Program-made: the position numbers and the translations under genes
Assembly: GCF_000014005.1 (NCBI RefSeq)
Contig: NC_008009.1
Coordinates: 1,984,001-2,048,000, forward strand
Direction: 5' to 3'
Length of the DNA stretch: 64,000 nt
Source of the DNA: Candidatus Koribacter versatilis Ellin345
GTDB lineage: Bacteria > Acidobacteriota > Terriglobia > Terriglobales > Acidobacteriaceae
The notes under the pieces: model-generated
What the model was told of the DNA's origin: nothing
Databases searched by the model: none
Seen by the model: the letters and a program-made list of their open reading frames with translations, nothing else
Shown: piece after piece, positions 43,319 through 44,068 of the stretch
Layout: each line of letters opens with the position of its first letter
How positions within the stretch are numbered: the stretch's first letter is position 1

Positions 43319-44068
43319 TTAGCCGGTTGGAGGCAAGCTTTTGAGCGCTTTTTCCAAATCGTCTGGATGGAAACCGAACGGTCCGGGCCTGCTCTTGTAA
43401 GCGATTTTGCCGTCGCGATCGATGAGGTAGAGACGGTCAGGCCATCCGGTGTAGGCCTTCTCGGTCGTATTGTCGATGCCGTCTAAGACGGCAGGAAACT
43501 TGATGCCAAGCTTGCGGACGCAGCTTCCGGCAACGGAGGCGCGTTCTTCGAGCGTCTTTGGGCTGGCGAAGAGCACGTTGTCTTTTACGTTGCTCTGCAT
43601 CTGCCAAACGTCGGTGGGGTGCGCTTCAAGAATGTAGACGGCGTAGAAGGCGACCTTGCCGGAATAGCTTTCCGCGAGCTTGTTGAGGGCGGGAACCTCC
43701 CGCCGGAAGGGCGGTCAGGTGTAGCTGCCGAAGACGAGGACAACGGGTTGTTTACCGCGGAAGCTGGAGAGTTGCACGCGTCCGCTCTTGTCGTAGGCTT
43801 CGAGGTCGAAATCGGGTGCATGGCTTCCGACTTCGAGTGTGCCGTGACGCGCGCGTCCCCACATGGTTTCGAAGGGGAAGAGGAAGTATGCGGGCATGGG
43901 CATGCGTTTCATCACGCTGCCGAAAACTTCCGGTGACTGGTGCATGGCCCAGTTGATGTAGCAAACGAAACCAATCCAGGCGACGAACACAACGGACGCG
44001 ATCGTCAGCCACATGCGGCGGCGGCTCTTCTTCGCTTGCTTCGGAACTGCAACTTCGGTTTCGCTCAT
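43319..44068 (-). CDS. Deiodinase-like membrane-anchored selenoprotein (in-frame TGA)
   Basis: Reading the TGA at 43717-43715 as selenocysteine gives one 249-residue protein; otherwise it falls into a 117-residue piece and an unstarted remainder. Residues 19-39 form a membrane anchor and a thioredoxin-like domain follows. Around the TGA the sequence is VFGSYT-U118-PPFRREVPAL, matching the iodothyronine deiodinase centre (GSxTUPPF). Further matches are VYILEAHPTDVW (E148, H150), AYTGWPDRLYLIDRDGKIAY and PGPFGFHPDDLEKAL. C183 could be a resolving cysteine. An SECIS-like hairpin follows the TGA. The substrate is unknown: the bacterial protein may be a peroxidase, a reductase or a dehalogenase. 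It lies between an alpha-galactosidase gene and a tandem array. Confidence 0.85.
43688..43717 (-). promoter_or_regulatory. SECIS-like hairpin after the TGA of the deiodinase-like gene
   Basis: On the minus strand the TGA is followed by ten bases and then GGCGGG-AGGTT-CCCGCC, a perfect six-base-pair stem with an AGGUU loop. The loop begins 16 bases after the TGA. Stem, G-rich loop start and distance fit bacterial SECIS elements recognised by SelB. Confidence 0.75.

Follow-up and report, generated by a model that had tools for sequence, protein, structure and literature searches.

A predicted membrane-anchored selenoprotein of the deiodinase family, with an animal-type active site, in Candidatus Koribacter versatilis Ellin345

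Analysis of a 64,000-nucleotide stretch of the Candidatus Koribacter versatilis Ellin345 genome (hereafter the window, meaning the whole stretch of DNA that was analysed) identified a gene at 43319-44068 on the minus strand that almost certainly encodes a selenoprotein. We favour a product that is anchored in the membrane, faces away from the cytoplasm and works as a peroxiredoxin-like selenol reductase of the deiodinase (PF00837) family, whose animal members include the enzymes that activate thyroid hormone; to this reading in full, with identity counting most, we assign a probability of roughly 0.55. The main interest of the gene is its animal-type site and the company it keeps with sel operons, more than the UGA itself. 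The features of the gene are as follows.

43319..44068, minus strand: coding sequence of the deiodinase-family selenoprotein, 249 amino acids plus stop, read through the UGA
43715..43717, minus strand: in-frame UGA, predicted Sec codon, residue 118 (TGA conservation in relatives; tRNA-Sec in the same genome)
43688..43704, minus strand: SECIS-like hairpin GGCGGGA-GGT-TCCCGCC, loop 17 nt past the UGA (synonymous freeze and hairpin count)
43955..44011, minus strand: predicted single transmembrane helix, residues 20-38 (helix 10-42 in the structural model)
43334..43837, minus strand: thioredoxin/peroxiredoxin-fold catalytic domain, approximately residues 78-245 (AlphaFold2 model and structure matches)
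43619..43627, minus strand: Glu-Ala-His, residues 148-150, counterpart of DIO3 Glu200-Ala-His202

The 249-codon frame has a single interruption, the UGA at 43717-43715, and ORF calling under table 11 returns two ORFs, making the gene an example of how such calling splits one gene; a second such gene lies within the same 64 kb. The original prediction, made from the sequence alone, held that this TGA divides one continuous protein, and the strand, the length of 249 residues and a PF00837 match across the UGA agree with it; the motifs that it listed (GSYT-U-PPF, VYILEAHPTDVW, AYTGWPDRLYLIDRDGKIAY and GPFGFHPDDLE) are present in the read-through protein as given. It had also proposed looking for Cys or TGA at residue 118 in homologues, and TGA was found at the Sec site in 38/38 readable relatives. 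These come from 42 fetched loci, of which two start past the site (L060 and L061), one is frameshifted (L063) and one, the only locus of the 42 without an acidobacterial title, is a weak 31% C-terminal match only (L064). Among the more distant homologues that were read, the codon at the site is TGA, TGC or TGT. Across 34 close relatives, with L049, L057, L059 and L062 excluded from the codon statistics, mean pN/pS was 0.40 upstream of the UGA (residues 44-117) and 0.28 downstream, with a largest value of 0.56 and with silent sites close to saturation. Judged from these alignments, both halves of the protein look to be under purifying selection, in line with the earlier argument that conservation on both sides of the TGA speaks against a pseudogene. 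In L057, the frame is broken upstream and a further, non-UGA stop lies downstream, perhaps through assembly error. A genuine stop, whether in a pseudogene or through a sequencing error, would fit the two table 11 ORFs and nothing else; given the conserved UGA, the selection on both sides, the synonymous freeze described below and the Sec machinery of the genome, we consider this explanation extremely improbable.

Synonymous variation is frozen immediately downstream of the UGA. At codons 122-127, synonymous entropy was 0.17 of that expected, compared with 0.92 elsewhere; this was the lowest of 150 six-codon windows, and 0/100,000 permutations were as low. A stem-loop with 5 or more pairs whose loop opens with GG or GU, at the matching distance from the UGA (a criterion fixed after the sequences had been inspected), was found in 53/56 rows including the window, against approximately 6.5 expected after synonymous recoding. 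By group, it was present in 38/38 close rows (window included), 8/11 distant rows and 7/7 other rows, with 3.8, 2.0 and 0.7 expected, respectively; L049 was left out of the count, and the other rows were L079, L080, L084, L089, L090, L091 and L093, of which L089 and L090 belong to the close group of the window. The three rows without it were L066, L072 and L076, and at 6 pairs it was retained in 35 close, 7 distant and 7 other rows, with 7/56 failing. Distant stems change in sequence yet still pair, as in L069 (CCGCTC/GAGCGG) and L071 (GAAGATC/GATCTTC). Folding energy by itself is not decisive: the 39-nt segment gave a folding z of -1.05, its minimum fold being a different pairing favoured by a small margin, and against synonymous recodings the window scored z -1.74, the 11 distant rows fell between -0.63 and -2.33, and 37 close rows averaged -1.75 (range -2.77 to +0.21). 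The case for a SECIS element is therefore built on the synonymous freezing and the hairpin count. The characteristic bacterial arrangement, a hairpin shortly past the UGA with a G in the apical loop, is seen here under a post hoc criterion and with a weak overall fold. Scans of the 64-kb window for tRNAs and Rfam families found nothing.

The host genome, a single contig of 5,650,368 bases, contains a tRNA-Sec with a UCA anticodon outside the window, together with SelA (560.5 bits), SelB (360.8 bits) and SelD (363.2 bits), each above its cut-off, so that all of the components named for checking in the original prediction (selA, selB, selC and selD) were found. The SelD match (L017, C1:102988-103917) itself holds one in-frame TGA. 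Three formate-dehydrogenase-alpha-like matches, at C1:542097, 1082286 and 2712751, contain one TGA each, all scoring under the family cut-off. Sec is thus probably used for further proteins in this genome, and the machinery alone is no proof for the deiodinase-family gene. From the UGA conservation, the SECIS-like constraint and the complete Sec machinery, all established computationally, we infer selenocysteine insertion at UGA-118. Since this insertion is a prediction, decoding of the UGA as Trp or Cys, or simple stop read-through without Sec, has to be weighed; the SECIS-like constraint, the sel genes and the tRNA-Sec are all present, and distant homologues that lack TGA have TGC or TGT, which makes such decoding most improbable.

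The read-through protein matches PF00837 (T4_deiodinase) over residues 44-242, spanning the UGA, with E=4.3e-30 and 105.2 bits against a cut-off of 27, in a search that the original prediction had proposed; 0/14 control genomes gave a PF00837 match. Its closest PDB sequences were mouse DIO2 (1.7e-19) and DIO3 (4.2e-19), followed by thioredoxin-family proteins from 2e-6, and it also passed the Pfam cut-offs of AhpC-TSA (47.1 bits, cut-off 26) and Redoxin (46.7, cut-off 26.6). Against NF038285 (deiodinase family protein), it scored 205.7 bits, below the curated cut-off of 250, with E=1.3e-60 over the catalytic domain; this model is 347 long, and only model positions 177-340 match the window protein. 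In a sample of 297 genomes of the phylum, each at least 80% complete, PF00837 was found in 29, of which 26 were above the cut-off, and in 21 genomes a passing match contained TGA. TGA was read at the Sec site itself in 19 of these 21, the loci in G274 and G218 being unrecognised by the site pattern. SelB was above its cut-off in 20/21 of these genomes (the exception being G226) versus 178/276 others (Fisher p=0.0017), with cut-off passage deduced from the E-value for some genomes. In the phylum reached through L064, PF00837 was found in 3/240 genomes, two above the cut-off and one with TGA. No relative on viral contigs was confirmed with a query that had Cys at the site, so that Sec forms could escape it, and a plasmid search gave three partial matches of 25-32% identity. 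The host genome encodes a second PF00837 protein (L022, C1:5649072-5649482), which contains Cys; its loop is shorter, and a segment at its C-terminus looks hydrophobic by eye.

A 36-row tree shows a split with support of 97/93: on one side stand 11 bacterial rows, on the other mouse DIO2 and DIO3 with the remaining 23 bacterial rows, the window protein among them. The tree took the window and 7 loci of its close group, L092 was omitted owing to a broken frame, and L081, L082 and L083 were unrecognised at the site when the distant homologues were read. The set of 11 comprises Cys types and Sec types, the latter with UPYC, UPFC or, in rows L079 and L080, UPPF; 9/11 have a shorter active-site loop. 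As in animals, PPF follows the catalytic residue in 22/23 rows of the window's set (L085 has CPNF, with Cys), and the loop Trp is present in 23/23; in the other set, L086 and L087 have it too. A His at the position of DIO3 219 is found in both animal rows and in 7/11 rows of the other set; in the window's set this position is Pro, Thr or Ala in 23/23 rows. The branch uniting the 23 bacterial rows apart from the animals received only 56/0, with long branches flagged, a split too weak to place the animal deiodinases inside or beside the window's bacterial group. Sec forms outside the window's tree group (L084, L093, L079 and L080, with UPYC, UPFC and UPPF) each have their own hairpin past the UGA. 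Within the group, L071 and L075 read GSCTU and so have the DIO1/DIO3 proximal Cys that is missing from the window protein. A bolder proposal, which we regard as a long shot, is that Acidobacteria retain an animal-type deiodinase lineage akin to the source stock of the animal deiodinases, acting outside the cytoplasm as a Se-dependent reductive dehalogenase or peroxidase on soil aromatics; if this were true, the deiodination of thyroid hormones would have co-opted that chemistry at a later stage.

A single segment of the protein is clearly hydrophobic (residues 20-38, Kyte-Doolittle 2.15) and matches the one N-terminal membrane anchor of the original prediction; residues 1-19 contain 6 K/R and 2 D/E. 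With one Lys/Arg-flanked anchor, the catalytic domain should face the periplasm, a topology that we regard as probable. An AlphaFold2 model (pLDDT 85.1, pTM 0.80), built from an alignment of 29 rows that omitted L025, L037, L039, L046, L051 and L055 after a late start was found, matched DIO2 (Z 16.9), the 1-Cys peroxiredoxin AhpE (Z 15.9, 2.0 A over 142 residues) and DIO3 (15.7) in the PDB. DIO2 ranked first in both structure lists, AhpE had the lower rmsd, and ResA was among the top matches. Fold and descent within the DIO family are highly likely; the fold does not choose between chemistries, because the Z-scores of AhpE and the DIO structures lie only about 1 apart.

The active site retains much of the animal enzymes. 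Ser115, Thr117, Sec118, Tyr145, Glu148, His150, Trp155 and Arg176, residues tied to deiodinase catalysis in the accessible sections of PMC7506546, PMC11592359 and PMC9141512, are kept; together with the PPF that follows Sec, they have their DIO3 counterparts at 167/169/170-173/197/200/202/207/225. Elsewhere the site departs from that of the animal proteins: the relay His (DIO3 His219) is Pro170, the distal Cys239 is Phe191, and the proximal Cys (DIO1 Cys124, DIO3 Cys168; Ala in mouse DIO2), the role of which is treated in the part of PMC9141512 available, is Tyr116. DIO3 Asp211 corresponds to Asn, in a region of uncertain alignment, and for the basic clamp (Arg275/Lys), Arg227 of the window protein sits one position earlier, as does the Dio1 residue according to the portion of PMC7506546 available. 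Given the Pro in place of the relay His and the loss of the two accessory Cys, thyroid-hormone deiodination is not supported. Of the name "iodothyronine deiodinase" given in the original prediction, a Sec-containing, membrane-anchored, deiodinase-family protein therefore stands, and the hormone function is unsupported, with Pro170, Tyr116, Phe191 and the 205.7 of 250 bits for NF038285 all against it.

A broader dehalogenating role is a separate matter. Outside the cytoplasm, the Sec selenolate could strip natural aryl halides of iodine or bromine, in the way that animal deiodinases act on thyroid hormones, and such a reductive dehalogenase would suit the animal-type residues kept at the site, DIO2 as first structural match and the tree, which puts the window's group and mouse DIO2/DIO3 on one side (97/93). 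The same replacement of His219 by Pro170, the absence of the proximal and distal Cys and the Asn at Asp211 (uncertain alignment) make this role rather unlikely. No halogen chemistry appears among the identified neighbours of the gene, a weak argument because it covers a minority of the recurring neighbour clusters. A periplasmic thiol-disulfide reductase similar to ResA/TlpA, in which Sec makes the attack, would share the architecture of one anchor plus a thioredoxin fold, and ResA appears both among the top structural matches and as an NCBIfam match (E=9.4e-11). We judge this distinctly unlikely, as the site is UPPF rather than CxxC, with no second Cys or Sec in the active site, and the ResA score is 41.9 against a cut-off of 170.

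The peroxiredoxin motif is PxxxT/SxxC. In the window protein it is incomplete, with Ser115 fitting at -3 and Leu111, not Pro, at -7; deiodinase structures are described as containing a peroxiredoxin motif in the consulted portion of PMC11592359. Every member of the close group has Cys183, a possible candidate for a resolving Cys.

The window also contains a second selenoprotein gene, AhpD-like, 6 kb from the deiodinase-family gene and on the opposite strand.

49876..50466, plus strand: AhpD-like selenoprotein gene (PF02627/TIGR01926), 196 amino acids, C-P-Y-U active site (profile matches and TGA conservation)
50146..50148, plus strand: in-frame UGA of the AhpD-like gene, residue 91 (TGA in 10/10 rows, the window and nine loci)
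50167..50184, plus strand: synonymously conserved stretch 3' of this UGA, possibly a SECIS element (10 rows; folds not uniform)

The AhpD-like protein scored 111.6 against TIGR01926 (cut-off 81.8), and the gene begins 15 bases past an amino-acid permease ORF (48493-49860). In 10/51 loci the deiodinase-family gene is directly preceded, on its own strand, by an AhpD-like gene, which has C-P-Y-U in nine of them (the site pattern allowed U or C). In L030, the AhpD-like neighbour (4379-4867) appears to be stop-free and only 37% identical to that of the window, while the deiodinase-family gene retains its TGA; this neighbour is a possible non-Sec partner. selB was found upstream of the deiodinase-family gene in 7/51 loci, and a selD-selA-selB-AhpD-like-DIO cluster, with the deiodinase-family gene last, in 4/51. 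Most loci with at least 2 kb of upstream sequence are without the cluster, and several of the 51 have little upstream sequence. Among 26 genomes (25 with a deiodinase-family gene plus that of L064), an AhpD-like match of >60% identity with TGA was found in 11; G305 adds a short fragment only. The immediate neighbours in the window are an alpha-galactosidase gene upstream and a substrate-binding protein gene downstream, and an operon with these was rejected, the former occurring in 1/51 loci (far from the gene) and the latter in 0/51. A 19-base unit repeated in tandem 5.3 times (43213-43311) lies between the selenoprotein stop and the next gene.

The AhpC-AhpD pair provides the basis for an analogy with peroxide chemistry, and by this analogy the AhpD-like link points to a shared role in peroxide defence. 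Direct electron transfer between the two proteins is doubtful: inspection by eye shows neither a signal nor an anchor in the AhpD-like protein, so it would be cytoplasmic, with the deiodinase-family domain predicted to lie on the opposite side of the membrane. Joint regulation, or mere shared use of Sec, is a safer reading of the link than an electron path.

For the chemistry of the window protein we favour a hydroperoxide reductase, then dehalogenation, then disulfide exchange, and put peroxide-type chemistry, as opposed to dehalogenation or disulfide reduction, at about even odds, with the substrate and the reductant conjectural. In the proposed mechanism, SelB and Sec-tRNA, recruited by the hairpin 17 nt downstream, would insert Sec at UGA-118, and the N-terminal helix would anchor the protein with its Lys/Arg-rich end inside and the thioredoxin-fold domain in the periplasm. 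Aided by Ser115/Thr117 and a Glu148-His150 network, the Sec selenolate would attack an electrophile in a cycle like that of a 1-Cys peroxiredoxin, the likeliest target being an alkyl or lipid hydroperoxide. The resulting selenenic acid, without a proximal or CxxC-type Cys partner, would be re-reduced by an external thiol. Against the peroxide reading stand the absence of the peroxiredoxin-motif Pro, the predicted location of the AhpD-like protein on the opposite side and the lack of the cluster in most loci with at least 2 kb of upstream sequence.

The kind of protein is not new: deiodinase-like bacterial selenoproteins were reported in 2005 from the Sargasso Sea, with a different, possibly redox, function considered likely (PMC1088965, in the text available), and again in 2008 from the GOS data, where the accessible table gives no motif (PMC2398784). 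In the consulted parts of two reviews, the family motif is UxxC (PMC9312934, PMC13188914), and the latter, from 2026, describes the functions of such selenoproteins as mostly uncharacterised and cites clusters of Prx-like with AhpD-like genes. A 2006 survey lists 4 selenoproteins from 3 families for Acidobacteria, "deiodinase" being absent from its main text as available (PMC1794560). In the accessible text of a 2025 method paper (PMC12013277), three known selenoprotein genes, left unnamed in that text, are reported in Occallatibacter riparius; as L025, a relative of the genus Occallatibacter, carries the cluster, this gene may already have been tabulated by others. A full-text search covering few subscription papers found no paper for Koribacter with deiodinase or Koribacter with selenoprotein, and the deiodinase-family gene is unnamed among the matches listed for literature on bacterial deiodinase, selenoprotein, SECIS and Acidobacteria, which likewise covered few subscription papers. 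To a kind that was already known, the present case adds an animal-type member, seen in a complete genome together with its operon context. A single-contig genome with such a member, a SECIS-like element, a full Sec pathway and a recurring operon partner makes the protein tractable, and offers a way into the purpose of deiodinase chemistry prior to thyroid hormones.

Among known systems, the Sargasso Sea and GOS proteins resemble the window protein, as far as the available sections describe them, in PF00837 membership, active-site Sec, a bacterial SECIS and a suggested redox role. They come from marine metagenomes and the window protein from a complete genome, a different phylum-level source; the UxxC of the bacterial proteins in the accessible review descriptions also sets them apart from UPPF with no nearby Cys, although the 2008 marine proteins, for which the portion available shows no motif, may include the window protein's type. 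DIO1-3 share with it the Sec in GSxTU-PPF, EAH, the loop Trp, the thioredoxin fold and the N-terminal membrane helix, and mouse DIO2 and DIO3 are 34-35% identical to it over 133-135 positions; the window protein differs from them in the Pro at His219, the missing proximal and distal Cys, a bacterial in-frame SECIS and the lack of a thyroid-hormone context. AhpE of Mycobacterium tuberculosis (1xxu) has a similar fold and a single catalytic chalcogen, and is soluble and without the deiodinase loop, whereas the window protein lacks the peroxiredoxin-motif Pro. Finally, the second gene of the window passes as an AhpD-like CxxU selenoprotein (TIGR01926, in the consulted part of PMC13188914), and it differs from the arrangement described there by being paired with selDAB and a gene of the deiodinase family.
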